Translations under genes and position numbers: made by a program | NCBI RefSeq assembly: GCF_019059575.1 | Contig: NW_024882720.1 | Span: forward strand, 62,001-126,000 | Length of the DNA: 64,000 nucleotides | Source of the DNA: Amphibalanus amphitrite | Lineage: Eukaryota > Arthropoda > Thecostraca > Balanomorpha > Balanidae | Direction: 5' to 3' | Notes under the pieces: model-generated | What the model was told of the DNA's origin: nothing | What the model saw: only the letters and a program-made list of their open reading frames with translations | The model's database searches: none | Shown: positions 5,476-63,131 of the stretch, one piece after another | Position numbering within the stretch: position 1 is the first letter of the stretch | How the letters are laid out: each line of letters starts with the position of its first letter

Positions 5476-7020
5476 TTAGGAGGAGCCCCAGCCAGCAGCG
5501 AGAGTCGGGTGCCAACTGGCCGGCGAGGAACCTGCGATAGGCAAGGATGAAAAAGGCCTATGCACAGCGTAATGATGCACTGGAGTAGAATGGAGATGAC
5601 TCAAGTTGATTCTCATAGACGCTGGAGGAGCCTGTAGACTTGCATTGCGCCTCTTTCGCCCGTTGCTGTTGTTAATGAGAACTAGGCGGCTCCGCTGAGC
5701 AGCGGCTGGATCCGTTGGGTTTAAAATGAGTCCGCGCAGAGAAATGGCGCGGCTCAGCGCTACGAAGGTGAGTCCAAGCGCAAATTCATTGGACCCGATG
5801 TCGATCCAGACGGCTAGTTTTGTCCAGCCTTGGCACCTGTGGATGGTGACTGCAAATGCCGGAGACAGAGGAGAATCTGCGTTCGGCTGTGGAGTCGCGC
5901 TCCCTCCATCCACTTGCTGGTAATGGCAGACACCGGCACTACCTGAGCTTCTCTGGGTTCCATGCTGAGCCCTGGTAACCGGGGAACTCCACGCAGACTG
6001 CGGCTGGCAGGGTGTCTTGGCCAGGCGCGTCTGGAGGGTACAGTAGCCCGACCACGGTCCCCTGAGTGCCGTTCGTGAGACCGGCGCTTACCCACATAGT
6101 TATTTGATTTCAGCATCACCTTGGCCCCGTCAGTTGGACTACCGGCTCTAGACCACCGGCGTATTCCGCTGACTTTTTCCTGGCTGTGGCGGGCTGGTGG
6201 ATGGCCTTCAGGTTGAAGCAGGGCCGACCGATGTTCCGCAGCTGACGGCGGTTGATATGCTGCCCCATCTCGTGGCTAGCGACGAGCCGCTGTGCGTCAG
6301 CAAACTTACGCCTCTCTTCGTTGGAAAGATGAGTCTCCAGACGGGTTGAGAGGAGCCTATGATCATCAGTGGTGGTGTTCCCGCCTCTGACGTGGGCGAG
6401 TCGACGTCGGGAGTGGAACTGCTCCTGTGCTGGTTCGCTACCACGCACAGCGCACAGGCTCCACCCGTATCAGAACGACGGCCTTTCCAAGCTCGGAAGC
6501 TGGCGCGGCCGTCTTCACTGAGCCGCCTGCCGCCTGCCGTCGAGTCGAACATTGGCCGATCCATGACGGGGGCAGCTGTCCAAAGTCTCCGACGAGACAC
6601 ACGCTCACCGCGCGGAAGGGCTCGGAGGAGTGGCATGGGAAGGCCCGGCGAAGGCACAGGTCTACAGCGCGCAGAAGCTGTCTCCCCACCATCGACATTT
6701 CGTCGATGGTGAGGAGCCGGAGTCCCTCCAGCCGTGTCTGCAGCGCCTGTAGTTGTTCGCCGGTCAGCTCCGGCGGGTCATTTGTCAGTGGCACTGGCAC
6801 GGACACACACCGATGTAGCGTCTCGCCCGTAATGTTAAAGGCGGCAGTGCCGTGAGCAGCAGTGCCGTGCCGTTAGGCGCGCAGACGCGCAAAAGATGCG
6901 CGGACTGCTCGCCGAACTCCTCCAGACACCGCTGCCTCAGACGTGACATGATGAGGGAGCTCTTCCCAGAGCCAGCCGTGCCGCTGACGAGCAAATGGAC
7001 TGCAGCGGCGTTTGGATAGT
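5476..7020 (-). pseudogene. PIF1-like DNA helicase, frameshifted remnant
   Basis: Read on the minus strand, the pieces give the superfamily 1B helicase motifs in the right order. They are a Walker A motif GTAGSGKS (about 6960-6983), a Walker B motif DEMSMV (about 6690-6716), motif III GDFGQLPP (about 6571-6593), a block of about 70 residues leading to NGTQGTVV (about 6040-6090), motif V TIHRCQG (about 5828-5850) and motif VI FVALSRA (about 5750-5771). PIF1-family enzymes unwind DNA 5' to 3', and related domains also occur in Helitrons. The motifs lie in at least three reading frames (shifts near 6800, 6440 and 6090), and the region before Walker A is missing, so the copy is broken unless the assembly has indel errors. 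No Rep/HUH domain is visible, so a Helitron origin cannot be shown. Confidence 0.8.
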
Positions 7021-7459: not shown

Positions 7460-8029
7460 ATTTAATTGACGTGCATAAAGTTGCATTATATTCACATTCA
7501 GATTCGCGTGCACATTCGCGGACCCCTCAGATTTGGCTCAAAATTGCACAGCTTATAGATTTTGAGCTCCTGATTGCGAAAATCATGTTTTTATTTCACG
7601 CCGTCAAGTGGTTCTCAAAATATTCACATTTGTATTACTGCCAACATATTCTGGACCGTAACCCTTATTGGAAAAATCGGACCCCTCCAAATTCCTCAAA
7701 AACTCCTGAGTTGATGTAAACATAAGCGCTGATCCAAAAAACTAATTTGTACTTAACGCCGTCCCATAGTTTTCTCAGGATGAGCATCTAAAGTTCAAGG
7801 TCGTTCAAGGTCATGTACCTTTTCTCACCTTTTGGCGCTATTTGACACGTGACAGCTTTATATTTATGATGGACATTCGCACTACCTCCTACAAAAACAA
7901 TATACTGAAATCCAAGAGGCGTTGCTGTACCAAAATGTAAAAAAAGCGTCAAAACCTCTTTCATACAGCTAACAGTTAAATACAAGGGATATTCGAATTT
8001 GCCACACATAAAGCAAATTTGTCGGACAT

Positions 8030-10801
8030 GGTCGGACCCCTCCGATATCGTTCAAAATCTCAGAAATGATGCTCATTGACCTCCTGAACATGAAAATGGT
8101 ACTCCCTTTGAACGCCGTCAAGAACTTTTCCAGATATACGCATCCATGCACATTCAAATTGCATAGGTGCTGCATATGGACGTTCGGCGGACCCCTCCGA
8201 TTTCGTTCAAAATATCAGGAATGATGCTCCTTGACCTCCTGAACATGAAAATGGCACTCCCTTTGAACGCCGTCAAGAACTTTTCCAGATATACGCATCC
8301 ATGCACATTCAAATTGCATAGGTGTTGCATACTCGTATGCACGTTCGGCGGACCCCTCCGATTCCGTTCAAAATCTCAGGAATGATGCTCCTTGACCTCC
8401 TGAACATGAAAATAGTACTCCCTTTAAACGCCGTCAAGAACTTTTCCAGATATACGCATCCATGCACATTCAAATTGCATAGGTGATGCATATGCACGTT
8501 CGGCGGACCCCTCCGATTTCGTTCAAAATCTCAGGAATGATGCTCCTTGATCTCCTGAACATGAAAATGGTACTCCCTTTGAACGCCGTCAAGAAATTTT
8601 TCCAGATATGCGCATCAATGCACATTCAAATTGCATAGGTGTTGCATATGCACGTTCGGCGGACCCCTCCGATTTCGTTCAAAATCTCAGGAATGATGCT
8701 CCTTGATCTCCTGAACATGAAAATGGTACTCCCTTTGAACGCCGTCAAGAAATTTTCCAGATATGCGCATCAATGCACATTCAAATTGCATAGGTGTTGC
8801 ATATGCACGTTCGGCGGACCCCTCCGATTTCGTTCAAAATCTCAGGAATGATGCTACTCGACCTCCTGAACATGAAAATGGTACTCCCTTTGAACGCCGT
8901 CAAGAACTTTTCCAGATATACGCATCCATGCACATTCAAATTGCATAGGTGTTGCATATGGACGTTCGACGGACCCCTCCGATTTCGTTCAAAATCTCAG
9001 GAATGATGCTCCTTGACCTCCTGAACATGAAAATGGCACTCCCTTTGAACGCCGTCAAGAACTTTTCCAGATATACGCATCCATGCACATTCAAATTGCA
9101 TAGGTGTTGCATATGCACGTTCGGCGGACCCCTCCGATTCTGTTCAAAATCTCAGGAATGATGCTCCTTGACCTCCTGAACATGAAAATGGCACTCGCTT
9201 TGAACGCCGTCAAGAACTTTTCCAGATATACGCATCCATGCACATTCAAATTGCATAGGTGATGCATATGCACGTTCGGCGGACCCCTCCGATTTCGTTC
9301 AAAATCTCAGGAATGATGCTCCTTGATCTCCTGAACATGAAAATGGTACTCTCTTTGAACGCCGTCAAGAACTTTTCCAGATATGCGCATCAATGCACAT
9401 TCAAATTGCATAGGTGTTGCATGTGCACGTTCGGCGGACCCCTCCGATTTCGTTCAAAATCTCAGGGATGATGCTCCTTGACCTCCTGAACATGAAAATA
9501 GTACTCCCTTTGAGCGCCGTCAAGAACTTTTCCAGATATACGCATCCATGCACATTCAAGGTGCATAGGTGTTGCATATGGACGTTCGGCGGACCCCTCC
9601 GATTTCGTTCAAAATCTCAGGAAAGATGCTCCTTGACCTCCTGAACATGAAAATAGTACTCCCTTTGAACGCCGTCAAGAACTTTTCCAGATATACGCAT
9701 CCATGCACATTCAAATTGCATAGGTGTTGCATATGCACGTTCGGCGGACCCCTCCGATTCCGTTCAAAATCTCAGGAATGATGCTCCTTGACCTCCTGAA
9801 CATGAAAATGGTACTCCCTTTGAACGCCGTCAAGAACTTTTCCAGATATACGCATCCATGCACATTCAAATTGCATAGGTGTTGCATATGGACGTTCGGC
9901 GGACCCCTCCGATTTCGTTCAAAATCTCAGGAACGATGCTCCTTGACCTCCTGAACATGAAAATGGCACCCCCTTTGAACGCCGTCAAGAACTTTTCCAG
10001 ATATACGCATCCATGCACATTCAAATTGCATAGGTGTTGCATACTCGTATGCACGTTCGGCGGACCCCTGCGATTCCGTTCAAAATCTCAGGAATGATGC
10101 TCCTTGACCTCCTGAACATGAAAATGGCACTCCCTTTGAACGCCGTCAAGAACTTTTCCAGATATACGCATCCATGCACATTCAAATTGGTTGCATATGC
10201 ACGTTCGGCGGACCCCTCCGATTTCGTTCAAAATCTCAGGAATGATGCTCCTTGATCTCCTGAACATGAAAATAGTACTCCCATTGAACGCCGTCAAGAA
10301 CTTTTCCAGATATACGCATCCATGCACATTCAAATTGCATAGGTGATGCATATGCACGTTCGGCGGACCCCTCCGATTTCGTTCAAAATCTCAGCAATGA
10401 TGCTCCTTGACCTCCTGAACATGAAAATAGTACTCCCTTTGAACGCCGTCAAGAACTTTTCCAGATATGCGCATCAATGCACATTGAAATGCATAGGTGT
10501 TGCATATGGACGTTCGGCGGACCCCTCCGATTTCGTTCAAAATCTCAGGAATGATGCTCCTTTACCTCCTGAACATAAAAATGGCACTCCCTTTGAACGC
10601 CGTCAAGAACTTTTCCAGATATACGCATCCATGCACATTCAAATTGCATAGGTGATGCGTATGCACGTTCGGCGGACCCCTCCGATTTCGTTCAAAATCT
10701 CAGGAATGATGCTCCTTGACCTCCTGAACATGAAAATAGTACTTTCTTTGAACGCCGTCAAGAACTTTTCTAGGTATACGCATCCAAGCACATTCAAATT
10801 G
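8030..10801 (+). repeat. 155-bp tandem repeats, left arm (about 18 units)
   Basis: Successive copies of GTTCGGCGGACCCCTCCG recur at a spacing of 155 bp (for example near 8655, 8810, 8965, 9120, 9275, 9430, 9585, 9740 and 9895). Two units (starting near 8329 and 10041) have an extra ACTCGT-type insertion, and one (near 10190) is shortened. Units differ by only a few substitutions, which implies recent homogenisation. 155 is not a multiple of three, so every open frame closes after about 1.4 units; the array is not coding. Confidence 0.92.
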
Positions 10802-12490
10802 CATTTGAATGTGCATGAATGCGTATATCTGGAAAAGTTCTTGACGGCGTTGAAAGGGAGTTCCATTTTCATGTTCAGGAGGTCAAGGAGCATCATTCCT
10901 GAGATTTTGAACGAAATCGGAGGGGTCCGCCGAACGTCCATATGCAACACCTATGCATTTTAATGTGCATTGATGCGCATATCTGGAAAAGTTCTTGACG
11001 GCGTTCAAAGGGAGTACTATTTTCATGTTCAAGAGGTCAAGGAGCATCATTCCTGAGATTTTGAACGAAATCGGAGGGGTCCGCCGAACGTGCATATGCA
11101 TCACCTATGCAATTTGAATGTGCATGGATGCGTATATCTGGAAAAGTTCTTGACGGCGTTCAAAGGGAGTACTATTTTCATGTTCAGGAGGTCAAGGAGC
11201 ATCATTCCTCTGATTTTGAACGAAATTGGAGGGGTCCGCCAAACGTGCATATGCAACACCTATGCAATTTGTCATTTGAATGTGCATGGATGCGTATATC
11301 TGGAAAAGTTCTTGACGGCGTTCAAAGGGAGTACTATTTTCATGTTCAGGAGGTCAAGGAGCATCTTTCCTGAGATTTCGAACGAAATCGGAGGGGTCCG
11401 CCGAACGTCCATATGCAACACCTATGCAATTTGAATGTGCATGGATGCGTATATCTGGAAAAGTTCTTGACGGCGTTCAAAGGGAGTACTATTTTCAAGT
11501 TCAGGAGGTCAAGGAGCATCATTCCTGAGATTTTGAACAAAATCGGAGGGGTCCGCCGAACGTGCATATGCAACACCTATGCAATTTGAATGTGCATTGA
11601 TGCGCATATCTGGAAAATTTCTTGACGGCGTTCAAAGGGAGTACCATTTTCATGTTCAGGAGATCAAGGAGCATCATTCCTGAGATTTTGAACGAAATCG
11701 GAGGGGTCCGCCGAACGTGCATATGCATCACCTATGCAATTTGAATGTGCATGGATGCGTATATCTGGAAAAGTTCTTGACGGCGTTCAAAGGGAGTACT
11801 ATTTTCATGTTCAGGAGGTCAAGGAGCATCATTCCTGAGATTTTGAACGAAATCGGAGGGGTCCGCCGAACGTGCATATGCAACACCTATGCAATTTGAA
11901 TGTGCATGGATGCGTATATCTGGAAAAGTTCTTGACGGCGTTCAAAGGGAGTGCCATTTTCATGTTCAGGAGGTCAAGGAGCATCATTCCTGAGATTTTG
12001 AACGAAATCGGAGGGGTCCGCCGAACGTCCATATGCAACACCTATGCAATTTGAATGTGCATGGATGCGTATATCTGGAAAAGTTCTTGACGGCGTTCAA
12101 AGGGAGTACCATTTTCATGTTCAGGAGGTCAAGGAGCATCATTCCTGAGATTTTGAACGAAATCGGAGGGGTCCGCCGAACGTGCATATGCATCACCTAT
12201 GCAATTTGAATGTGCATGGATGCGTATATCTGGAAAAGTTCTTGACGGCGTTCAAAGGGAGTACTATTTTCATGTTCAGGAGGTCAAGGAGCATCATTCC
12301 TGAGATTTTGAACGAAATCGAACGGGTCCGCCGAACGTCCATATGCAACACCTATGCAATTTGAATGTGCATGGATGCGTATATCTGGAAAAGTTCTTGA
12401 CGGCGTTCAAAGGAAGTACCATTTTCATGTTCAGGAGGTCAAGGAGCATCATTCCTGAGATTTTGAACGATATCGGAGGGGTCCGACCAT
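10802..12490 (-). repeat. 155-bp tandem repeats, right arm (about 11 units, inverted)
   Basis: This is the same 155-bp unit in the opposite orientation, marked by CGGAGGGGTCCGCCGAACGT at regular spacing. The axis falls in CATTCAAATTGCATTTGAATG at about 10801, so the arms meet with a spacer of only about 5 bases. This arm has about seven fewer units than the left one, which indicates unequal exchange or slippage in one arm, or assembly collapse. Confidence 0.9.
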
Positions 12491-13058
12491 GTCCGACAAA
12501 TTTGCTTTATGTGTGGCAAATTCGAATATCCCTTGTATTTAACTGTTAGCTGTATGAAAGAGGTTTTGACGCTTTTTTTACATTTTGGTTCAGCAACGCC
12601 CCTTGGATTTCAGTATATTGTTTTTGTAGGAGGTAGTGCGAATGTCCATCATAAATATAAAGCTGTCACGTGTCAAATAGCGCCAAAAGGTGAGAAAAGG
12701 TACATGACCTTGAACGACCTTGAACTTTAGATGCTCATCCTGAGAAAACTATGGGACGGCGTTAAGTACAAATTAGTTTTTTGGATCAGCGCTTATGTTT
12801 ACATCAACTCAGGAGTTTTTGAAGAATTTGGAGGGGTCCGATTTTTCCAAGAAGGGTTACGGTCCAGAATATGTCAGCAGTAATACAAATGTGAATATTT
12901 TGAGAACCACTTGACGGCGTGAAATAAAAACATGATTTTCGCAATCAGGAGCTCAAAATCTATAAGCTGTGCAATTTTGAGCCAAATCTGAGGGGTCCGC
13001 GAATGTGCACGCGAATCCGAATGTGAATATAATGCAACTTTATGCACGTATTTAATTG

Positions 13059-29111: not shown

Positions 29112-29678
29112 GCCGGCCGGCCGATGACGTCATTGGAGGCAAGCCGGCTCGGCGGACACACAGGGCGAATGCATAACGGAGGGGCGTTGGGACGTTGCGG
29201 GAGCCAGGGAGATATTTTAAAGTGGTTGCATACCACCATTGTTTGTTGATTGATCTGCAGACTGCATCCTTTTAAACCTCGATGCATCCTAGGCCTAGAT
29301 GGTGCGTACATTCGTGGAACGATCACCCCGTCCGACGTCCGTGGTCGAAGCTGTCATAGTATTTAAGACACTAAGATGGGTGCAATAACGGCGATCCGAT
29401 CCCGTCTCTGGCGAATTTAGAGGGGTCGTAAGGACCCAGGCCGAATCTGACCGTCTATTTTTAGGGAAACGGGGTGGGTGAATTGACAACCGATGGCTTA
29501 AGAGATGATGAGAAGGGATCCCGTCGTCGATTGTTGTTTGACAGACAACACATGTTGTACTGGGCGTATGACCATCAGAGGTAATGCCTGAACGTAGGCA
29601 AGCATAATTGGTCTGTCATATTGTTTAGGAATATAAAATGGTAATGGAGATTATTGAGGATATGATCTCTACATTACG
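29112..29678 (+). repeat. 567-bp tandem duplication, copy 1 (empty site)
   Basis: The unit runs from GCCGGCCGGCCGATGACGTC to TCTCTACATTACG and is followed directly by a second copy. At about 29355 it contains an uninterrupted TATTTAAGACAC, the empty target site of the element inserted in copy 2. The two copies look identical apart from that insertion. Confidence 0.92.
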
Positions 29679-31194
29679 GCCGGCCGGCCGATGACGTCAT
29701 TGGAGGCAAGCCGGCTCGGCGGACACACAGGGCGAATGCATAACGGAGGGGCGTTGGGACGTTGCGGGAGCCAGGGAGATATTTTAAAGTGGTTGCATAC
29801 CACCATTGTTTGTTGATTGATCTGCAGACTGCATCCTTTTAAACCTCGATGCATCCTAGGCCTAGATGGTGCGTACATTCGTGGAACGATCACCCCGTCC
29901 GACGTCCGTGGTCGAAGCTGTCATAGTATTTAACCCTCGCACGACCAGGCCATTTCTCATAACACGAACGACCAGGGGGGGGGGGGGGGTTGTTACGACC
30001 CCCCCCCCCCTGGCGTTTCGAAACGGAAGGTCGTAGAGCTTAGCGGAAAAAACCAACGGATTGCTCTCAACGAGATCTCGCGATTGTTGGTATATTTTTT
30101 GGTCCTAGGTCAACATTTGACCTACTTTTGACCGGTCAAAGGTCAAATTTTCGGAAAAATAGACTTTTTTTCAACTTTCCGTGGCGATTGCGGCAAAACG
30201 GTGGGAGATATCGACTTGAAACCTTCACTATCGTGTTCCTTGATCAATTCTCTATCGTTTGGTATGTATTTCGTTTCCCTAGCTCTAAAAATGGCGCGTT
30301 GGGAGCGCCGGAAGTCGGCAAGGTCACAGTCGGCGGCAGAAATTCGAAAAATCAAAATTTAAATTTTTGAAATCTGATTGTATTTTTGGATTTGGGAGGT
30401 CCATTTGCTCCCTATAGAAGCTAATATTGCTGCATATTCCCATTGACGTGACAAGAATTAGCAAAATAGTGGTTCGGGCGCTTTTCAAAAATAGTACCGG
30501 ACGCTGTTCCTCTTGTGACGTCATAGCTCCGTGACCTGACCTGACCCGGTCAAATTTCTTATACCATATGATAGCCAATACTTGCCCCAACATGCATGGG
30601 AAGTTTCATCACGATCCATCAACCGATGTCCGTACCACCGGCAGGAAACCACGGGCGTTGGCACTCAGTTTGTTAAAATCCGGCCGGAGGCTGTACCTCT
30701 TATGACGTCATAACTCCGTGACCTGACATGACCCGATCAATTTTTTTTCGGCAAAAGATGCGCAAAGGTTGCCCCAGAGGGTATTGAAAATTTCAGCCCG
30801 CTACGACAAGCCGTTTAGCGTGCACTTCGAAAAAACCTCAGGGGGGGGTTGATACAACCCCCCCTAGGCGTTCTAGGGTTAAGACACTAAGATGGGTGCA
30901 ATAACGGCGATCCGATCCCGTCTCTGGCGAATTTAGAGGGGTCGTAAGGACCCAGGCCGAATCTGACCGTCTATTTTTAGGGAAACGGGGTGGGTGAATT
31001 GACAACCGATGGCTTAAGAGATGATGAGAAGGGATCCCGTCGTCGATTGTTGTTTGACAGACAACACATGTTGTACTGGGCGTATGACCATCAGAGGTAA
31101 TGCCTGAACGTAGGCAAGCATAATTGGTCTGTCATATTGTTTAGGAATATAAAATGGTAATGGAGATTATTGAGGATATGATCTCTACATTACG
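29679..31194 (+). repeat. 567-bp tandem duplication, copy 2 (filled site)
   Basis: It is the same unit with a net insertion of 949 bp at TTAA. Length arithmetic is exact: 1516 bp minus 949 bp equals 567 bp, the length of copy 1. Confidence 0.92.
29930..30882. mobile_element. TTAA-flanked AGGTCA-rich element (copy F), insertion proven by empty site
   Basis: TTAA at 29930-29933 and 30879-30882 flank an element beginning CCCTCGCACGACCAGG and ending CCTAGGCGTTCTAGGG. Copy 1 of the surrounding duplication has a single TTAA at the same place, so this family inserts at TTAA and duplicates it. G-run/C-run hairpins sit near both ends (about 29977-30010 and 30841-30864). The interior has many TGACCT and GGTCA words, including GGTCAAAGGTCA at about 30134-30145. 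Confidence 0.93.
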
Positions 31195-31771
31195 GGAATT
31201 CACTAATTACTACGGCCCATAGGGGCACCGCCGGAGCTGTTGTTTTGCCATCGGTCCCAGGCAACTCCAGGGAGCTGCAGTATCCGGCGGCCAAAGCGGC
31301 CACCTCGTCGACTCGCAGGTCCTCTGGGATTCCGTGATACTTTAGTGCTTCACCCACAGAAGCACGGGCATAGCAGTAGGATGTGGGGCTAGGTGTCTGT
31401 CCACCTCTTCATTCAAAGAACAACGTGTACAGCGCGTGGTCCCGCCGAAGCTCGGTATCGACCGTGACTTATTCACAACTGGCGGATCCAGGAAGCGGTA
31501 TTGGACACTGCGGGGGCTTACCCCAAAAAGGTTTCTCGGAATTAATTTAAAAAACTCGGATTTCGATTCCTTGCGCACTGCTGCGCGGTGTGATTAACCA
31601 ACATTTCCTCAGAAAAGTTGTGAAGTTTTCATTTATTCTCGAAAATCGATTTCGGGCGCTGCCCTGGTTGTTGGGGAAGACATTTGCCCCAAATGCCTTC
31701 CCCTGGATCCGCCAGTGGCCGTTGCCTCACTCCGAGCTTGACTGAAGACGTCTTCAAACCTCACCAGAAAC

Positions 31772-38713: not shown

Positions 38714-40604
38714 CAAGCAGGGTTGTATACCAATCAAGTCGATTGAATTGATTGATTTGATTCAGCGCGTATTTTGAGTTGATTGGATTGAGTCGATTGA
38801 CTTTTCGAGATGACTGGTTGACTGACTCGTTTGACTTTAGCGACTGGTTGACTGATTTGATTCCCGAAAATTAGAGTGACTCGTATGATTGAGTCGATTG
38901 AATGGAAAGTTGAAATAAGTTTTAGTTGACGAAAAATAATGACACCAATTGATGACATCAAAGATCACAAAACTACACTGAAAACTGCTTGTCATCACAA
39001 CTGCAATATGGAGTAGATGGCCAAATAAAGAACAGGGCCTAAACATGAACAGCCAACTTTGACTTTCAACTGCAATAACTGCTCTGAATCCTGTGATAGA
39101 ACCTGGCGATGCACCTACCTACCTTTTTGCACTCAGCAGGAATTTTTTTTTTAATCCAGATGATAAAGTGCAAGGCCCTATATACTAATAAAGTGTGATT
39201 AATTACTAATTCACATCTCCACATCTCCTCAGAAACAACCCACTGAACTCTATAAATATCTCACTGAACTCTATAATGAAATATCTGAAACCCCTACAAA
39301 AATAACTGAAACAAAAGCGCCGTTTTCGTCTCGCTAATTACGTTTACATTAATAGCTAATTTGCTGCATTGTTTAATTTGCAGCAGAACGTTTGTTGATC
39401 CTTTTCTCCTGAGAGCCTAGGCATAACATATTTAATATATTTCATTTTCCTTAAAATATTTTACCGAATATTATTAAGTGGTTTTATTTCAATCGAAATA
39501 ATAATTAAAACGAAATTGGTGTTGTACAACCGATTTATTTTATGATGATCTACCATACTACATGATAATCAATGACGTCATCTTACCAAAAAATCAAAAG
39601 ACGAAGAATAAGGATTTATAAAAGCTTAGCATATTTCTTGGCAAAACGTTTTCTTTGTTTTTTCGCAGTCCACCAACGGCATTTAATTTTCCTTGTTCTT
39701 CTTCCTTTGTCCTTAACTTATCCTGTGGTTCCAGAGTCCCTGTCCATTCCATTTCCTTTTAAATATATTTTTAATGCTCATCCCTATCCCCCAGTCCTAA
39801 CAGTTTCAAATTGTATTGCAATAAAATGTTTTGAATTCTTCACATATAACCTATCTACCTTCGTTGGTACTGTTGGTAGCCAGTGACACATCTAGGCAGG
39901 TAAGTAGTTAGGTACACTCGGGGGCAGATTGATGTTCCACAACTCTTTATCCACCGGGTTCCTATGGCTCAGCATTGGCAGCAGCCGCCTGGTACCGGTA
40001 GACTGTGCCGCTTCACTTACTTGTCAAGCGGCACAGCCTACCCACACCGTATGACACCGGTCTGGGTCGGTGGCTGGAAGGCGATGTGGGCCGCCTGTGA
40101 CGTCAGCGCAGCGGTGAGGGCCGAGCCCGGAGGCATGGCTCGGGTCGGCGCGGCGCGGCGGCTGGCGAGGGCTGGGGAGTGAGGTGGGATGGGAGCACGG
40201 ACATCGCGCGGCTGAGCGAGTGTAGTTAACTTTCGCGTCTCAAGGCGCCAATTATTCTACCTAACAATTGTGCTAAAGCAGTTGTTAAAATGTCCTATCC
40301 CCAAGACAGCGCCTATCATCATACTTGCAATGCACATTACGACACACTTAAGCGTGGCAATGGGACAGCCGATATAACTTATGTCACTCGTGAGTCGTGC
40401 ATCGAGGTGCGGAGCTATATTTTGTATAACATATTAGTATTAAGGCCTTGATTGAGCAGATTGGTGTCTATTGTTTCGCACGGCAATCGTCCAGAGACGT
40501 GGGAACTGGGGGTTATGAGTAGTGCCGCAGCCAACGCTCTAATTAAAGCGATTATTATATGGTCGCAGCCTCCAATAGCAAACCGTTCCAACTAGGAGCC
40601 AAAA

Positions 40605-40688
40605 ACTCGGCCACTCAGGGGGGTTCGAACCGGGCTTCTCCCACCGGCCAACTCACGACACGAGCGTTCATCCACTGAGCTACCGAGA
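40605..40688 (-). repeat. tRNA-like module (SINE-type head), left arm
   Basis: On the minus strand an A box (TAGCTCAGTGGATGAACGC, about 40664-40682) and a perfect B box (GGTTCGAACCC) are spaced as in a tRNA gene, and CTCGG/CCGAG can pair as an incomplete acceptor stem. The full cloverleaf is not convincing, so I call a tRNA-derived polymerase III promoter rather than a working tRNA. Confidence 0.6.
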
Positions 40689-40792
40689 ATGGTCCTAGTC
40701 CGCACAAAACAAAATGACATTCACCCGCTGACCGCCAATGACAGCATTGTGACATTTAATCGCGTTTGACCGCGGCGGGTGGCTGCTGGTTT

Positions 40793-40862
40793 CGACAGCT
40801 CAGTGGATACACGCTAGCGTCGTGCGGTGACCGGTTGGAGAAACCCGGTTCGAACCGTCCCA
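40793..40862 (+). repeat. tRNA-like module (SINE-type head), right arm
   Basis: This is the inverted partner of the module at 40605-40688: A box CAGCTCAGTGGATACACGC (about 40796-40814) and B box GGTTCGAACC (about 40847-40856). The two modules point away from the axis of the palindrome. Confidence 0.6.
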
Positions 40863-41907
40863 GGTGCGCGACTTATTTGTTCCTAGATGGAACGGTTTGC
40901 TATTGGTGGCTGCGACCACACATTAGAGGAACAGGAAGAGTTGCTTAAAGTTGGGACGCCGCGCTATCCAAAAACACCAGTTCCCACGTCTCTGGACGGT
41001 TGCTGTGCGAAATAATAGACACCAATGAGCTCAATCAAGGCCTTAATACTTATCTGTTAAAAACAATGTAGCTCTGCAACTCGATGCACGTGTGATATAA
41101 ATTCTATCGGCTGTCCCAATGCCACGTTTAAGTGTGTCGTAATGTGCATGGCAAGTATGATGATAGGCGCTGTCTTGGGGATAGGACATTTTAACAACTG
41201 CTTTAGCACAATTGTTAGGTAGAATAATTGGCGCCTTGAGACGCGAAAGTTAACTACACTCGCTCAGCCGCGCGATATGGTCCGTGCTCCCACCCCACCT
41301 CACTCCCCAGCCCTCACCAGCCGCCGCGCCGCGCCGACCCGAGCCATGCCTCCGGGCTCGGCCCTCACCGCTGCGCTGACGTCACAGGCGGCCCACATCG
41401 CCTTCCAGCCACCGACCCAGACCGGTGTCATACGGTGTGGGTAGGCTGTGCCGCTTGACAAGTAAGTGAAGCGGCACAGTCTACCGGTACCAGGCGGCTG
41501 CTGCCAATGCTGAGCCATAGGAAGCCGGTGGATAAAGAGTTGTGGAACATCAATCTGCCCCCGAGTGTATAGTCGGTCAAATATGTATCTTTCCCGGCCG
41601 GCCCTCCCCAAGCTGGGCAGGTCGGTAACTTGGCTGAATCCGCCGGCCGCTGCGAGTACTACGGAGGGGAGGGGACAGGTTGTGCGGTTGCCGCGTCGGC
41701 CAATGAGCGCGGACCTGGCGAGCGGGCTGGGGCCACGGCGTGTTGACCTAATATGGTCAAAGGTTCATGCCCTGCGGGTATGGTCTGCGGCCAGCTGGCC
41801 CACTGACTGAGCCACAGCACCGGGTCGCGGAAAGGTTTCGATAGGTATCTGAATTGGAGAGTGGAGACCGTTAGCTTGAACTTGAGTGTAGTCGCTCTAG
41901 GTTTGAG

Positions 41908-42906: not shown

Positions 42907-44161
42907 GATTTTCAGTAGATATGGCTTAACGCTTTCCCGTTAATGCCAAAAAAAAAATGAAAAAAGTTTTTGCTTTATCAAAAAATAACCGGTCATAATT
43001 CGATTAAATATTTCTCTTGCGCTAATCATCATATCACCAAGCATTCAATCGTATCAAGAGCAACCATCTTAATTTTTAGGTCAGCGACCCCTGTTGAAAC
43101 ACCAGATAATCCTTTGATAGCTCATAGCACTCAGTCTACAATTTACACGGCGCATGAAAGCACAGCCATCATTAGACCATCGCGCTGCCCTCACATTCGT
43201 TAGATTCCTAACGCATCCGCTTGCTCGCCTCTCCCGGCCAGACCCGCCGGAGCACCCGGCGGCGAGGCCGTCCAGTGCTGGTCTGCGGTCACTCTCCAGC
43301 CGGCCGCTGTGTAGCTCCGCCCCCCGCGCGTGACGTCACAGGGCCGCCAGAGCCGCCAGGGCAGCTGGGGTGTGGGCTCAGCCAACTATCGAATCCAGAC
43401 CGTAGCGCCACTTGGCGGCCGGGAAAGATACATATTTGACCGACTATACCTACCTGCTTTCCTGCTGTCTTCATAAAGCATACCTAATGAAGTTGTCAAA
43501 TTTATAGCACATTTTCAACACTTTCATATCAATATGGTGTCAGTGTGGCATGTAACCTAGCTAGGTTCATTATGTTCAGGGTTCAATTCAGAAGAGCTCC
43601 GCATAACTCACATAAGAGACAGACGGGGGCTTTACATGGGGTAGATGGCCTGATGACTTAGCTGGAATATGGCCAAAATTAAATTGACAACTTTTAGGTA
43701 AAAGGTGGTGATTTGGGTTAAGGGGCGTTTGTTGAAGTCAACTACTGGGTTATTTTGCACCCATTAAATGAAACTTCTGCTCCAATTCTACCCATTGAAC
43801 CTCAATATCATGATCCACCTGTCCATCATTAGGTATCCTTCCTTATTACATAGAAACTTTGAATGGCATGGCAATTTATAATTTTAAATGACAATATTTT
43901 TGTTTCTTCTGTAGGTAGGTAGGTAGGTAGGTACACCAGACTGCTATGGACACTTTTCCAAGTTGGTGGGGCAAAAAACCTAATGTATATCTTGGTTTGA
44001 GTCGTTTGATTGAGTTGATTGATTCCTTTCATTGTCGCGTTTGAGTCGATTGAATCAATTCCCGAAAACTGCTCTGACTTGATTGATTTGATTGGTTTCC
44101 CAAATTTGTCGTGATTGAATTGATTGCTATTGATTGAGTCGTATACAACCCTGTTAACAAG

Positions 44162-56717: not shown

Positions 56718-57181
56718 TGTAGATGCCGTTTCTATGTCGGCGGCGTCATTCGTGACGGGCACGAGCTAAACCAAATAAAATTTTGCTGAAGTAGAAAAGT
56801 AGGACAGAAATAATTTTGAACAAGTAAAATAGGCTTAGTAGAAGGGTTTTGAAAATAAGTATCGAAACCGCACGACAAGGAAAGAAGAAGTTAAGCGATA
56901 TTTAAGTTTACGTGGTGTAGAATAAGATAAGCCTTTCATGTAGCCGCGGACCAAAAATCGCTTTTGACGGTGGTTGTGGTTGAGATTGTGTGCGTGAAAG
57001 AAGAAGAACCTGTGAGAAAGACGGTGATAAGAACCGGTGTGAAGTGTGCTATTTTGTGCCTGAGTTTATATTTTATTTTATTACCGAAATATTACGACAT
57101 CCCGATCAACTTTAGTTTGAAATAAATCAGAGAAAAATCACTCAGCTCAAGCCACCCGTAAAGCATTATCCAGCGCCTACA
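56718..57181 (+). repeat. Left LTR (464 bp)
   Basis: It begins TGTAGATGCCG and ends CGCCTACA (TG...CA form). Compared with the right LTR I count four substitutions and one 10-bp difference (extra GGTGGTTGTG-like bases near 56972), about 99% identity, which implies recent insertion. AATAAA at 57120-57125 could serve as polyadenylation signal. Confidence 0.95.
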
Positions 57182-57315
57182 CTTAGTCAAAAGCGCTTTT
57201 CTACGTTTATGATTCTTACTTTTAGTCAAGTTTAAGATATGAAGATATGAAGTTTGTTTAACGTAAGAATCATTTAACGTAAACAACGCAAGTGTAAGTC
57301 AAAGTACATAAGAAG

Positions 57316-58923
57316 ATGGGAGCTGACTCTCCAAACGACCTACCGTTACGTACGGCAAAGTCCCTACGGGAAGAACTCAGAAAAAGAGGACTGTCGACAA
57401 GCGGCAACAAGGCTGTTCTGATAGAAAGACTGGAGAAAGTTCTAGCTGCCGAAGAGCAAGCGGAGGCAATTGAATGCAGAAGCTCAATGTCACATGCATC
57501 TCTCGTTTCAAGTTCCTCTACTTCAAGCCAAAGAGCCCAAGAAACTCTTAAGAGGGCAGAGCTAGAGGCCAAAGTAGCTCTACTCGAAGGAAAAGAACGA
57601 CTTCTTCGTGAAGAAATGGAGCTTAAGATGAAACGAGAGAGGCTACAGCTGCGAGAAGAAATGGCGCTTGCTGAAGCAAGAGAAAAAGCACTTGAGATGA
57701 GCGCGAGTGTCCTCAATGAAGAGACCATTCCAAGACGACAAGGCTCAGCTGCGAATGGCGATGACAGTGACGATTCGCAACGAGAACTGACAGCTATTCA
57801 AGCACTGTTAACTCAACAGAAGAGAACTCTGCTACCCCAGTTGCAGATTCAGACTTTCCGAGGCGATCCTTTGGAGTATAAAGGATTCATCCGCGCATTT
57901 GAAAGCAGGATAGCCAAAAGGACAGAAGACTGCGCGGAGCGCCTGCACTTTCTGGATCAATACACAGACGGAAAGCCCAACACCATAGTGCGGAGCTACA
58001 TGCACATTGATCCAGTAAAGGGCTACGCTGAGGCTCGGAAGGCTCTCGACCGAAAATACGGCGATGACTACAAAATATCTAAGGCGTACGTGGAAACGCT
58101 GCTCACCTGGCCCGCGATCAGAGCCACGGATATAGACGGGCTGGAAGACTTCGCTATCAAACTGAGAGGCTGTTTGAATGCTATGGAAGACATCAGCAGT
58201 CTAACTGAGGTAAACCACCCAAAGAACCTGCAGAAGATTGTTGGCAAGCTACCAGCCGCCCTTCAAGAGGGCTGGCGACGGTTAGCCTTCTCTCTGACAA
58301 GACAGGACGCGAAGCCCAGCTTTCAAGATGTCGTGGAGTTCGTGGAGAAGGAAGTGGAAGTGGCGGCCGATCCCGTGTTTGGAACCGCTGAGATGGCTGC
58401 TATCTCCAGTGGAACAAAGTCATCACCTGTAAACAGAAGAGAAGATGTAAAAGTAAAGAAATCGAAAATTCATGTGACGAAAACAACGGAAGATGCAGCA
58501 AACGGCGAACTCTGTCCGTGTTGCAAGGAAGGTCACGACCTGGAAGCGTGCCAGAAGATGCTGTATAAAACTACCAGCGAGAGACTGGAGCTGGTCAAGA
58601 AAAGTGGCCTATGCTTTGGATGCCTCCGATACGGGCACAGCTCTAGACAGTGTCGCAAAAGGAAGACATGCTCGAAGTGCGGCTCTCGTCACACAACTCT
58701 GCTTCACATGGACCCAAGAAATTCAGAAAAAGGAAGACCCGGTCCGCTGCCCGAGCCAAGAAGTAAAGTATGTGGCGGAACGACGACGGACCGAGCCGGA
58801 CCTGTCATGTCCATACTACCCGTGCTGGTCACGGGCCGGAACGGAAAAAAAGCAAAACGTACGCCTTTCTTGACAGTGGCAGCTCGGCAACATTCATCAC
58901 CAACGCTCTCGCTGAGAAGTTGA
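57316..58923 (+). CDS. gag: Gag-like polyprotein of the BEL/Pao element
   Basis: The ATG at 57316 follows the left LTR by 134 bp, and the frame is open for 535 codons. Residues about 8-45 form a SAP-type DNA-binding motif (LREELRKRGLSTSGNKAVL). Residues 55-135 are a charged coiled coil. About 175-360 match the DUF1759 gag-like region (TFRGDPLEYKGFIRAFES near the start). Cys/His knuckles follow: CPCC..GHDLEAC near 398, CFGCLRYGHSSRQC near 432, CSKCGSRHTTLLH near 452. It packages RNA and assembles particles in this family. A SAP motif at the N terminus is less usual. The frame overlaps the protease frame from 58770, with a slippery A-run at 58845-58851. Confidence 0.9.
   Translation: MGADSPNDLPLRTAKSLREELRKRGLSTSGNKAVLIERLEKVLAAEEQAEAIECRSSMSHASLVSSSSTSSQRAQETLKRAELEAKVALLEGKERLLREEMELKMKRERLQLREEMALAEAREKALEMSASVLNEETIPRRQGSAANGDDSDDSQRELTAIQALLTQQKRTLLPQLQIQTFRGDPLEYKGFIRAFESRIAKRTEDCAERLHFLDQYTDGKPNTIVRSYMHIDPVKGYAEARKALDRKYGDDYKISKAYVETLLTWPAIRATDIDGLEDFAIKLRGCLNAMEDISSLTEVNHPKNLQKIVGKLPAALQEGWRRLAFSLTRQDAKPSFQDVVEFVEKEVEVAADPVFGTAEMAAISSGTKSSPVNRREDVKVKKSKIHVTKTTEDAANGELCPCCKEGHDLEACQKMLYKTTSERLELVKKSGLCFGCLRYGHSSRQCRKRKTCSKCGSRHTTLLHMDPRNSEKGRPGPLPEPRSKVCGGTTTDRAGPVMSILPVLVTGRNGKKAKRTPFLTVAARQHSSPTLSLRS
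58845..58851 (+). promoter_or_regulatory. Candidate -1 ribosomal frameshift site A_AAA_AAA
   Basis: Seven adenines sit so that, in the gag frame, they read A|AAA|AAA (gag codons at 58843-58845, 58846-58848 and 58849-58851). The protease frame is exactly the -1 frame. This is the canonical slippery heptamer arrangement. A homopolymer sequencing error would mimic it. Confidence 0.5.
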
Positions 58924-59118
58924 AGCTAAAGGGAGAAGAAACGTCACTGGCTATAACGACCGTGGAGCAAGACGAGCTAAAAATCAGCAGCGAAGCCCTA
59001 ACCGGACTTCAAGTATCAAGCCTGGACGGGAGCGGCAGCGTAAAACTGCCGTGTACATACACAATCAAGAAGATCCCTGTCACGAGCAGCGATATACCGG
59101 ACGCATCTGTCGTGCAGG
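58845..59118 (+). CDS. Aspartic protease region (-1 frame), truncated
   Basis: In the -1 frame relative to gag, the sequence gives YAFLDSGSSATFI with the catalytic DSG motif of retroviral-type aspartic proteases, then LKLKGEE and about 70 further residues to IPDASVVQ. Beyond about 59118 the frame continues to a stop at 59285, but the residues (Pro/Gly-rich, over a run of 12 G) no longer match the family. It reaches the gag frame through the heptamer A AAA AAA. It is truncated at its C terminus relative to the usual A17 region. Confidence 0.8.
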
Positions 59119-59266
59119 CCGTATTTGCTTACCCGACCGCTGGCGCTTATCTAGCCTCCTATTGGCGCCCGCACCCTCTGGTGGCCGGCTCCCTCATATG
59201 CCGGGCACCTCCAGGAAACGGGGGGGGGGGGCCGGTTGCACCTCTAACGCCAAGCGTTAATGTATT
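59119..59266 (+). other. Damaged protease-pol junction
   Basis: About 150 bp of unrelated GC-rich sequence with a 12-G run replaces what should be the rest of the protease and the N-terminal lead-in of the reverse transcriptase (roughly 200 residues in relatives, from family knowledge). It contains a TAA at 59258-59260 in the pol frame. It looks like a deletion with a filler insertion. Confidence 0.65.
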
Positions 59267-62200
59267 TTGCACGGAACTGACGTGAAAAGACCAATAGCTC
59301 TACCACTGAAGTACGAAGACACTAGCCTACCGAATAATCGCAAGATGGCTGAAAGACGAGCCGAAGGGCTCAAGAAAAGACTCGAGAGGGACGAAGGTCT
59401 ACATCAGCGATACACTGAGTGTGTCGAAGAACTCATCCGAGAAGGTCACGCTGAAGTTGTCCCTCCCGAACAGCTCCATCGACTTAGCAAGACATGGTAT
59501 CTGCCCCACCATGCCGTCAGCCATCCTGCAAAGCCAGAAAAGACGCGAGTCGTCTTCGATTGCTCAGCAAAGTACGGCGGCGTGTCACTGAACGATCAGC
59601 TGCTACAAGGACCTGATCTGACAAACAGTCTGCTCGGTGTACTGATAAGATTCCGACAGGAAGAAGTCGGATTCGCCGCTGACATCAAAAGCATGTTTCA
59701 CATGGTCAGAGTGCCTGAGAAAGATGCAGATTTACTGCGGTTCCTGTGGTGGCCTAAAGGTGACACATCCCAGGAGCCACAGGACTACCGGATGAGGGTG
59801 CACCTTTTTGGAGCCAAGTCATCGCCAGCGTGCTCAAACTTTGCCCTCAAGAAAACTGCAGAAGACATAGGGACCGAAGACCACTCGGAAGTGAAGAACA
59901 CGATAGAACGTAACTTCTACGTAGACGACTGCTTGAAGTCCGTGCCAGACGTAGATTCAGCTGTGAAGTTAACCGAGTCGCTCCGCTCAGCATGTCAGAA
60001 GGGGGGTTTTCACCTCACGAAGTTCGTTTCGAATGACAAGTCAGTCATGGAACACATCCCAGAAGAAGACAGAGCGGTAGAAGCAGCCAGTAAAAGCTTA
60101 CTGGAGACGGACTCAGCCGAAAAACGTGTTCTGGGTATCCTCTGGAATGTCTCATCAGACACGATCGGAGTTCAAGTTCAGGACATGAGAAAACCTGCAA
60201 CAAGAAGAGGCATCTTATCGGCAACCAGCTCGCTCTTTGACCCTCTGGGGTTCGTAGCACCCGTTCTGATGGCTCCGAAGATCCTGTTACAGCAGCTCTG
60301 TCAGCTGGACCTGGGATGGGACGACCCCATTCCTCAGCACCTGGAACAGAAGTGGATAGAGTGGACGCAGGCTCTTCATCACCTTCAGGACTTCAAGATA
60401 AGACGGTGTTACAAGCCCCCAGGCTTCAAGGCCATCACTTCCTGCCAGGCTCACTATTTTGCCGATGCAAGTGAGACAGGATACGGCGCAGTAGCCTACT
60501 TGCGGATGACAGATATCGAAGGGAAGACCCACTGCTCATTCTTGGCTGGAAAGGCAAGAGTAGCACCCTTGAAGACTGTCACGATTCCACGCCTCGAGCT
60601 GACAGCTGCCACGGTAGCAGTACGTCTAGACGCACAGCTCAAGAGGGAGCTAGAAGTAGCGGTAGACAGCACTACATTCTGGACGGACAGCTCTACCGTT
60701 CTCCGTTACATCAAGAACAGAACTAGCCGTTTTCATACATACGTGGCCAACAGAGTCCAGGTCATACAGCAGCACTCAGACCCAAGTCAGTGGCGATTCG
60801 TAGATGGCAAGTCGAATCCGGCTGATGAAGCCTCCCGTGGGGTTTCTGTGGAGAAGTTTCTCCATCGTTCGAGATGGACATCAGCACCGGAGTTCCTGTG
60901 GAAAAACGAAGAGCACTGGCCTGTGGATCTGAACTTACCTGTCCAACTGGACCAGAATGACGCAGAAGTGAAGCGACCTGCGATAGTTTCGGTCACAAGC
61001 ACCTCAGAGAAGAACCCCACAGACAGACTTCTACTGCAGTACTCATCATGGTACCGACTGAAGCGAGCGGTGGCGTTCTTCCTGCGGCTGAGACGCCTCC
61101 TGAAGGCCAAGGCAGAGCGGGCGCTCTCGGCTCTGCAGACGAGGACAGCAGCACACGACGGGAGCAGATCGAGTGCCTCGAGTACATCGGCCAACGAAAA
61201 GAAGAAGCCGAACAAGAAGGGGACAGCTGCTCGCGCTGATCAGCCGACCACACCAGCTCTCCTGTCTGTGGAAGAAATTGACGACGCAGAGACGGCCGTG
61301 ATCAGCTATGTTCAATCACAAAGCTACAAAGAAGAAATAAGCAGACTGAGAGGGATGCAAAATGTCAAGCGCTCCAGCCCGATAAGCCGCCTCGATCCCG
61401 TTCTAGACCAGAACGTGTTACGAGTCGGAGGGCGTCTCGGTCGGTCTACACAAGCATTTGAAAGGAAGCATCCGGCTATTATGCCGGCCAAGTCACACGT
61501 AACGGATCTCATCATCCAAGACGTGCATCAATCAGTGGGTCACCTAGGCCGTCAGCATGTCCTAGCTTCACTCAGAGAGAAGTTCTGGGTGGTGCGTGCA
61601 AACGCAGTTGTTCGGCGGGTCCTGTCCCGCTGTCTCACATGCCGACGACTTCAAGGAAGACCGCTGACGCAAAAGATGGCCGACCTGCCGGTGGATCGCG
61701 TTACGCCCGACCGGCCGCCGTTCACGTTCTCGGCGGTAGACCTGTTTGGCCCCCTGCTCGTGAAGAAGGGAAGAAGTATGGTCAAACGGTATGGCGTGCT
61801 GTTCACCTGTCTAACGACCCGAGCGGTTCACATTGAAGTGGCTCACACCCTCTCCACGGACTCGTTAATTAATGCCCTGCGCCGATTCGTATCCAGGAGG
61901 GGTCAAGCTGAAGAGATACGGTCGGACAATGGAACGAACCTCGTCGGGGCCGAAAGAGAGCTGCGTGAAGAGATAGACAAATGGAACCTGCAGCAGATCC
62001 ATGAAGCAATGCTTCAGCATCACGTGAAGTGGAAGTTTAACCCACCTGGCGCTTCTCACCATGGTGGAGTATGGGAGCGACAGATTCGCTCTGTCAGGAA
62101 GATACTGAGCTCACTAGTGCTCAGTCAAGTCGTGGACGAAGAAGGCCTATCGACACTGCTGTGTGAAGTTGAGTCGATTCTCAATAGCCGTCCACTGACA

Positions 62201-62617
62201 CCAGCGTCTGACGATCCACTGGATCTCGACCCTCTGACGCCCAACCATCTTCTTCTCCTTCGAGCCGGTCCTCGCCTACCGCCTGGTGCGTTTAGCGACA
62301 GCGACAACTACACCAGAAGAAGATGGCGGCAGGTTCAGCACCTGGCAACAGAGTTCTGGAGAAGATGGAGCCAAGAATATCTGCAGAGTCTGCAGCACAG
62401 GCAGAAGTGGACGAGGGAAGAAAGAAACCTACAAGTCGGAGACGTAGTTATCATCGCAGACAAGAACGCTCCTAGGAGCACATGGAGCATCGGGCGCGTG
62501 ACACGCGTCTTTCCAGATGCGGGCGGAGCCGTTCGTGCGGCGGACGTGCAGACGAAAAGCACAGTGCTGAAGCGTCCGGTGACTAAGCTGGTTCTCCTCG
62601 CGGAAGCAGGAGAATAA
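59267..62617 (+). CDS. pol: Pol of the BEL/Pao element: reverse transcriptase, RNase H, integrase
   Basis: The frame is open for 1116 codons to TAA at 62615. It has no ATG at its 5' edge (first Met codon 59345), so it would be made as a fusion in an intact element. Reverse transcriptase: ADIKSMF near residue 145 and the catalytic YVDD at about 218. RNase H: FADAS near 398, PRLELTAA near 443, WTDSS near 472, and NPADEASRG near 520. Integrase: the HHCC zinc module (H-x3-H in VHQSVGH near 757 to CLTC near 789). The catalytic aspartates lie in AVDLFGP (about 824) and SDNGTN (about 886), and the glutamate in GGVWERQ (about 935). DUF5641-like region near 990-1110. All catalytic residues I can check are present, so this part is well preserved. 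Confidence 0.93.
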   Translation: MHGTDVKRPIALPLKYEDTSLPNNRKMAERRAEGLKKRLERDEGLHQRYTECVEELIREGHAEVVPPEQLHRLSKTWYLPHHAVSHPAKPEKTRVVFDCSAKYGGVSLNDQLLQGPDLTNSLLGVLIRFRQEEVGFAADIKSMFHMVRVPEKDADLLRFLWWPKGDTSQEPQDYRMRVHLFGAKSSPACSNFALKKTAEDIGTEDHSEVKNTIERNFYVDDCLKSVPDVDSAVKLTESLRSACQKGGFHLTKFVSNDKSVMEHIPEEDRAVEAASKSLLETDSAEKRVLGILWNVSSDTIGVQVQDMRKPATRRGILSATSSLFDPLGFVAPVLMAPKILLQQLCQLDLGWDDPIPQHLEQKWIEWTQALHHLQDFKIRRCYKPPGFKAITSCQAHYFADASETGYGAVAYLRMTDIEGKTHCSFLAGKARVAPLKTVTIPRLELTAATVAVRLDAQLKRELEVAVDSTTFWTDSSTVLRYIKNRTSRFHTYVANRVQVIQQHSDPSQWRFVDGKSNPADEASRGVSVEKFLHRSRWTSAPEFLWKNEEHWPVDLNLPVQLDQNDAEVKRPAIVSVTSTSEKNPTDRLLLQYSSWYRLKRAVAFFLRLRRLLKAKAERALSALQTRTAAHDGSRSSASSTSANEKKKPNKKGTAARADQPTTPALLSVEEIDDAETAVISYVQSQSYKEEISRLRGMQNVKRSSPISRLDPVLDQNVLRVGGRLGRSTQAFERKHPAIMPAKSHVTDLIIQDVHQSVGHLGRQHVLASLREKFWVVRANAVVRRVLSRCLTCRRLQGRPLTQKMADLPVDRVTPDRPPFTFSAVDLFGPLLVKKGRSMVKRYGVLFTCLTTRAVHIEVAHTLSTDSLINALRRFVSRRGQAEEIRSDNGTNLVGAERELREEIDKWNLQQIHEAMLQHHVKWKFNPPGASHHGGVWERQIRSVRKILSSLVLSQVVDEEGLSTLLCEVESILNSRPLTPASDDPLDLDPLTPNHLLLLRAGPRLPPGAFSDSDNYTRRRWRQVQHLATEFWRRWSQEYLQSLQHRQKWTREERNLQVGDVVIIADKNAPRSTWSIGRVTRVFPDAGGAVRAADVQTKSTVLKRPVTKLVLLAEAGE

Positions 62618-62677
62618 CAACCGTCGAAGCGAACACTAAGTGACGCTCGGGCTAACGTGCGCCGACGGGGGCGGGGG

Positions 62678-63131
62678 TGTAGATGCCGTTTCTATGTCGG
62701 CGGCGTCATTCGTGACGGGCACGAGCTACACCAAATAAAATTTTGCTGAAGTAGAAAGGTAGGACAGAAATAATTTTGAACAAGTAAAATAGGCTTAGTA
62801 GAAGGGTTTTGAAAATAAGTATCGAAACCGCACGACAAGGAAAGAAGAAGTTAAGCGATATTTAAGTTTACGTGGTGTAGAATAAGATAAGCCTTTCATG
62901 TAGCCGCGGACCAAAAATCGCTTTTGACGTTGAGATTGTGTGCGTGAAAGAAGAAGAACCTGTGAGAAAGACGGTGATAAGAACCGGTGTGAAGTGTGCT
63001 GTTTTGTGCCTGAGTTTATATTTTATTTTATTACCGAAATATTACGACATCCCGATCAACTTTAGTTTGAAATAAATCAGAGTAAAATCACTCAGCTCAA
63101 GCCACCCGTAAAGCATTATCCAGCGCCTACA
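62678..63131 (+). repeat. Right LTR (454 bp)
   Basis: It is the same TGTAGATG...CGCCTACA sequence as at 56718-57181 but 10 bp shorter. It starts 60 bp after the pol stop codon. Confidence 0.95.

Follow-up and report, generated by a model that had tools for sequence, protein, structure and literature searches.

Transposable elements of the foldback structural class have long inverted repeats that form most of the element and contain tandem arrays, they end in a target-site duplication, and they are expected to occur as multiple dispersed copies. In the FB elements of Drosophila melanogaster, the array block consists of five 27- to 31-bp repeats separated by CTC, and two fly FB elements are described with distal sequences of 467 to 479 bp and a middle region of 321 to 322 bp (PMC7642927). 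For Tetris of Drosophila virilis, duplications of 8 to 10 bp and a suggested relation to Mutator are reported, and its units can seed satellite DNA (PMC4079207). In Tm1, a Mutator/Foldback element of root-knot nematodes, duplications of 8 to 10 bp, mostly 9 bp, were found in 45 of 53 complete elements, the arms within one element have an average identity of 93.15%, and one element with a Phantom-like transposase of the Mutator-like element (MULE) group is known (PMC3169594). Galileo of Drosophila has up to three units per arm in the F copies of D. mojavensis and four direct repeats in Galileo-G of D. buzzatii (PMC3688188, PMC3573991); in its terminal inverted repeat (TIR), a DNase footprint places the site of the Galileo transposase domain at +63 to +80, and an electrophoretic mobility shift assay showed binding to additional sites in two of the four TIR repeats (PMC3688188). 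In the present study, we analyzed a stretch of 64,000 nucleotides from the barnacle Amphibalanus amphitrite (contig NW_024882720.1, positions 62,001 to 126,000; hereafter the window) and describe a 5581-bp element in it, which is a new non-autonomous member of the known foldback structural class. With a probability of about 0.8, we consider it to be a non-autonomous foldback DNA transposon of the animal genome, which would be served in trans by a transposase most likely of the MULE type and whose arms would have arisen by inward amplification of a 155-bp binding module. In the literature, no barnacle foldback transposon was found, nor was an element with the present 155-bp unit seen among the matches listed, as judged by titles and the openings of abstracts.

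The element is an inverted repeat at positions 7469-13049 of the window. As an earlier note on this DNA had reported, the 9-mer ATTTAATTG stands in direct orientation on both sides (plus strand, left copy 7460-7468 and right copy 13050-13058); the repeat is exact and maximal at 9 bp, the adjoining bases being mismatched at left and right. Given the base composition of the flanks, two fixed boundaries would share a 9-mer by chance with a probability of about 4e-6; when 2,000,000 boundary pairs were drawn at random from the window, 26 had such a match. Because ATTTAATTG is AT-rich and recurs three times on the plus strand of the window (3499, 32392, and 55498), the chance for this particular word is about 1e-4, which is still small at one fixed place. 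The element thus ends in an exact 9-bp target-site duplication, and the long inverted repeats with their tandem arrays form most of it.

Each arm begins with a distal domain, at 7469-8032 in the left arm (plus strand, starting with ACGTGCATAAAG) and at 12486-13049 in the right arm (minus strand, ending with CTTTATGCACGT), and the two domains are identical at 557 of 564 positions without gaps. ACGTGCATAAAG is found exactly once at each end of the element and nowhere else in the window. Inward of the distal domains lie the arrays, namely 18 units of about 155 bp at 8033-10799 (plus strand, the final unit shortened) and 11 inverted units of about 155 bp at 10803-12485 (minus strand, the innermost unit shortened), as delimited by Tandem Repeats Finder (TRF), unit extraction, and nhmmer. 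TRF itself placed 155-bp arrays at 8033-10804 (17.9 copies) and, inverted, at 10803-12485 (10.8 copies), in agreement with the long arms of 155-bp tandem units noted earlier. The arms are joined at 10788-10814 by a palindrome with perfect 12-bp arms and a 3-nt spacer, TGC, at 10800-10802 (centre 10801 in the palindrome scan), and therefore the element has no middle region. Over 2262 aligned columns, the inverted arms have 95.8% identity. The earlier view that the whole 5581 bp folds on itself holds for the inverted repeat, but not for folding over the full length: from the coordinates, the left arm is longer than the right arm by about 1.08 kb (7 units), and thus this excess must bulge out when the strand folds.

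Units from the left and right arms are intermixed. The mean identity among the 27 full units is 94.6% (range 87-100%), and the two innermost shortened units match at 117 of 126 sites. Distances between units of different arms are, if anything, slightly smaller than those within arms (difference -0.32; 1750 of 2000 label shuffles gave a difference as large or larger), and 15 of the 27 full units have their nearest neighbour or neighbours solely in the opposite arm, a count taken without a shuffle baseline. Furthermore, two pairs of units are identical across the arms (R04 and L07; R06 and L05). If the arms had evolved separately, the units would be grouped by arm; no such grouping was seen, and thus exchange between the arms is suggested. 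The simplest interpretation is conversion or unequal exchange between the arms, aided by their pairing in a hairpin. The order of units is at best weakly kept between the arms, as the local alignments of unit order were equalled or beaten by 12, 18, and 37 of 500 shuffles in three settings. No sign of tandem slippage between neighbours was seen in the left arm, where adjacent full units differ at a mean of 6.63 sites, compared with 6.76 in shuffled order (708 of 2000 shuffles were as low as observed).

The distal domain also holds diverged copies of the array unit, one clear and one weaker and marginal, and we present this relation as new. The first copy (7519-7629, plus strand, in the left arm and 12889-12999, minus strand, in the right arm) was found by the nhmmer profile of the array with an E-value of about 1e-9, and its local alignment with the consensus scores 83, while none of 500 shuffles scored above 37. 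The second copy (7678-7798, plus strand, in the left domain) scores 40 against the consensus, whereas the reverse complement of the same stretch scores 31; against the first copy it scores 45, with a shuffle maximum of 37. The array profile did not report the second copy at an E-value of 1e-3. In a three-way alignment of the consensus and both copies, 93 (consensus and first copy), 76 (consensus and second copy), and 82 of the 139 ungapped columns agree pairwise, and 63 of the 139 are identical in all three sequences.

Two words are common to the consensus and both diverged units in this alignment, CGGACCCCTC (a run of 10) and ACGCCGTC (a run of 8). Shuffling the columns of this alignment, which was itself selected by similarity, 20,000 times gave a run of 10 in 1.8% of the shuffles and both runs jointly in 0.06%. 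Each word is expected at 33 places, once in every array unit and in both diverged copies of each arm; exact CGGACCCCTC is present at 31 of them and exact ACGCCGTC at 32. These make up 31 and 32 copies in the element, compared with 0 and 2, respectively, in the 58.4 kb outside it, and within each arm both words have a single orientation. For 30 of the 31 exact copies of CGGACCCCTC, ACGCCGTC follows at a distance of 78-79 bp; for the remaining copy the distance is 234 bp because the second word is mutated in that unit. We regard CGGACCCCTC and ACGCCGTC as candidate transposase-binding sites. Galileo may serve as a precedent: its TIR has a footprinted site at +63 to +80 (PMC3688188), and the first CGGACCCCTC here starts at +51 of the transposon.

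The longest stop-free stretch that overlaps the element is 125 amino acids long and, by eye, consists of translated repeat units; with no longer stop-free frame, the element encodes no transposase and is therefore non-autonomous. Among the six open reading frames (ORFs) of the window scanned with Pfam, none matched a MULE model. No similar copy was seen in the remaining 58.4 kb, in which the best nhmmer match of the unit profile had an E-value of 0.15 and the best blastn match of the distal domain had an E-value of 0.029 over 21 bp. Searches with the unit, with the end, or with the first 1182 bp likewise gave no match in viral contigs, prokaryote genome contigs, plasmids, phages, or E. coli genomes (the viral and prokaryote contigs were searched by exact patterns and the E. 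coli genomes in near mode only); an absence from such collections says little about an animal element. The one character from which a Mutator/MULE affiliation may be read is the 9-bp duplication, the length found with Mutator/MULE (Phantom) elements. The best support for expecting a MULE comes from Tm1, as described, because it unites a Phantom-like MULE transposase with foldback arms and with duplications that are mostly 9 bp long (PMC3169594). On these grounds, the element was probably mobilized by a MULE.

An alternative possibility, which we consider unlikely but not negligible, is a foldback element moved by another superfamily, for example by a P-type transposase, as in Galileo, or by Merlin, whose elements have 8- to 9-bp duplications. 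The foldback form is said to have arisen several times (PMC3169594), and Galileo is a P-type element with tandem repeats in its arms (PMC3573991, PMC3688188). However, the duplication here is exactly 9 bp, whereas 7-bp flanking sequences are described for Galileo, of the P superfamily (PMC3573991).

The explanation of the structure that we prefer, with a transposase most likely of the Mutator/MULE superfamily, is as follows. A transposase supplied in trans would bind the repeated subterminal sites, with the 155-bp unit as its binding module, cut at the ACGTGC ends, and join these to a target opened by staggered cuts 9 bases apart. The ancestral end may have had one or two modules, one of which was then amplified inward until the arrays held 18 and 11 units; conversion and unequal exchange, including that between arms paired in a hairpin, would keep the units alike. 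A bolder version of this explanation, which we offer only tentatively and would not favour at present, is that both arms, including much of the distal domain with its cut terminus, derive from one 155-bp module with two binding words 79 bp apart, so that the element would be a cargo-free, self-amplifying array of sites kept uniform by exchange in the hairpin.

Several points weigh against the reading as a MULE-served transposon with an amplified module. A single copy was seen, and no second insertion site or empty site was found in the window, nor a MULE transposase among the six ORFs scanned. The transposase class is assigned to an element that has no stop-free frame longer than 125 amino acids. 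As for the module, the second diverged unit is barely above the shuffles (its score against the consensus was reached by 1 of 500), a candidate third diverged unit at 7780-8032 was rejected because its score was equalled by 151 of 500 shuffles, and the choice of the alignment by similarity bears on the test of the shared words. As for exchange, the units could also have become intermixed if one arm was recently copied into the other and the order was then rearranged or shuffled. A single deletion or duplication of 7 units as the cause of the difference in arm length, with the right arm equal to the left arm minus a 7-unit block, was also rejected, as this model fitted worse than shuffled unit orders (70 compared with a mean of 62.5; p 0.98).

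Membership in the Drosophila FB family proper (FB/FB4, with NOF), by vertical descent or by transfer, is improbable. The element has the 9-bp duplication and opposed, unequal arrays in foldback arms, as FB has, and its distal domain of 564 bp is comparable to the distal ends of about 470 bp (467-479 bp in two fly FB elements) in the published description; however, the 27- to 31-bp repeats with CTC and the middle region of 321-322 bp given for the two fly elements were not found here (PMC7642927). At lags of 31 and 30, the self-match of the 155-bp consensus is 0.265 and 0.316, respectively, compared with a mean of 0.251 and a standard deviation (sd) of 0.034 over lags 1-77; the highest value, 0.329, belongs to lag 6. 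No significant sub-period of 27-31 bp is thus present, although lag 30 exceeds the mean by about 2 sd. When the consensus was divided into five 31-bp pieces and these were aligned with gaps, the score was equalled or exceeded by 63 of 200 shuffles, and TRF found no sub-repeat in the consensus. The earlier note had called the element FB-type for its long tandem arms and 9-bp duplication, and had pointed to a 155-bp block length in FB as striking, though possibly coincidental. The foldback type, with its arms of tandem repeats and target duplication of 9 bp, stands; the tie to FB through the shared length is not supported, the unit having no significant FB-like period, and the equal length of the fly block and the present unit is most likely a coincidence. 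Judged against the published description of FB, the sequence supports a place in the foldback class, and not one in the FB family.

In our comparison, Tetris and Rehavkus-1_TC seem to be better parallels than FB, as far as their descriptions go. Like the present element, Tetris has a distal domain followed by tandem units in each arm (about 220 bp there), no conserved ORF according to its description, and a part of the distal domain that resembles the unit (PMC4079207). However, the stretch shared by the distal domain and the unit is 37 bp at about 80% in Tetris, whereas it covers most of the unit here; one pair of Tetris alleles has 3 or 4 left-arm units, compared with the 18 and 11 units of our two arms, and Tetris has a middle domain, which is absent here (PMC4079207). 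Rehavkus-1_TC of Tribolium castaneum, compared by its description, has inverted termini with short arrays of a 164-bp satellite unit, but it is 9.5 kb long with mostly 5 and 8 units, whereas the present element is 5.6 kb long with 18 and 11 (PMC10218199). Tm1 has composite inverted repeats in which the number of units differs between the ends, as here, although its units are 8-21 bp long and number 1-9 per arm, compared with 155 bp and 18 and 11 (PMC3169594). Galileo shares the long inverted repeats and the internal tandem units, some of them with sites for its transposase domain, but it belongs to the P superfamily and has units of about 210 bp and arms of up to about 1.26 kb (PMC3688188, PMC3573991).

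The length and homogeneity of the unit are satellite-like, and we therefore also considered satellite DNA that was turned into a palindrome by chromosomal rearrangement, without transposition. This origin is very improbable in view of the exact 9-bp direct duplication at the ends, the sharply bounded distal domain common to both arms, and the absence of unit sequence outside the element in the window. Least probable of all is an artefact of assembly or of a chimeric hairpin read, for although such reads take the shape of nearly spacer-free hairpins, as the 5.6-kb hairpin here does, they would be expected to mirror the flanks and to give equal arms, whereas the flanks are unmirrored, one arm has 7 units more than the other, the distal domains carry 7 substitutions in 564 bp, the arms diverge by about 4% over the 2262 columns, and the 9-bp direct duplication brackets the whole element. 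The objection raised in the earlier note that the inverted arms might be an assembly artefact is thereby largely answered: the element is probably not an artefact, whereas its exact number of units could be misassembled.

Other repeats and remnants of mobile elements were observed in the window. A second foldback-like inverted repeat lies at 39913-41569, with ends ACACTCGGGGGCAGATT unlike those of the element described above; its arms of about 770 bp have 89% identity overall (99% in the outer 290 bp) and are about 105-115 nt apart, and no clear target duplication was seen by eye. The sequence at its right end (41567-41600) recurs in inverted orientation at 43416-43449 (34 of 34 bp). Decayed ORFs are present at 5476-7000, two of which were scanned without a Pfam match; by eye, the translation resembles a Helitron/PIF1 helicase. 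The ORF at 32940-34031 matches DDE_1 (Pfam PF03184) at E 0.00029, short of the curated cut-off, and we take it to be perhaps a decayed pogo-like transposase. A BEL/Pao retrotransposon with long terminal repeats (LTRs) that are 97% identical occupies 56718-63131; the bases adjoining the LTRs are CTAAC and GTAAC, and its first ORF has a SAP domain (E 4.4e-11). Among the best 120 of 5779 matches of its reverse-transcriptase ORF, an Amphibalanus amphitrite sequence has 56% identity, five better ones have 57-93%, and mollusc, echinoderm, fish, and coral sequences are among those near 50%. At 29112-31195, repeats of 255 and 317 bp that are 100% identical lie within about 2.1 kb and suggest a recent local duplication. 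The fragment at 45931-46392 matches the end of a rhodopsin-type receptor (7tm_1) at E 1e-5, which does not reach the curated cut-off, and is possibly an exon of a host gene.

Within the foldback class, the barnacle element is distinguished by arms built from a module, by the paired shared words, and by the absence of a middle region. The cause of the frequent occurrence of tandem units in foldback arms is an unsettled question, and additional transposase sites are one proposal; among the elements compared here, and as far as the published accounts go, this proposal is backed biochemically only for Galileo (PMC3688188). The present element offers a testable prediction for it, with two named words at a fixed spacing in about 30 repeats. 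Furthermore, as a large natural palindrome with almost no spacer, it allows exchange between the arms to be read from the variants of the units.

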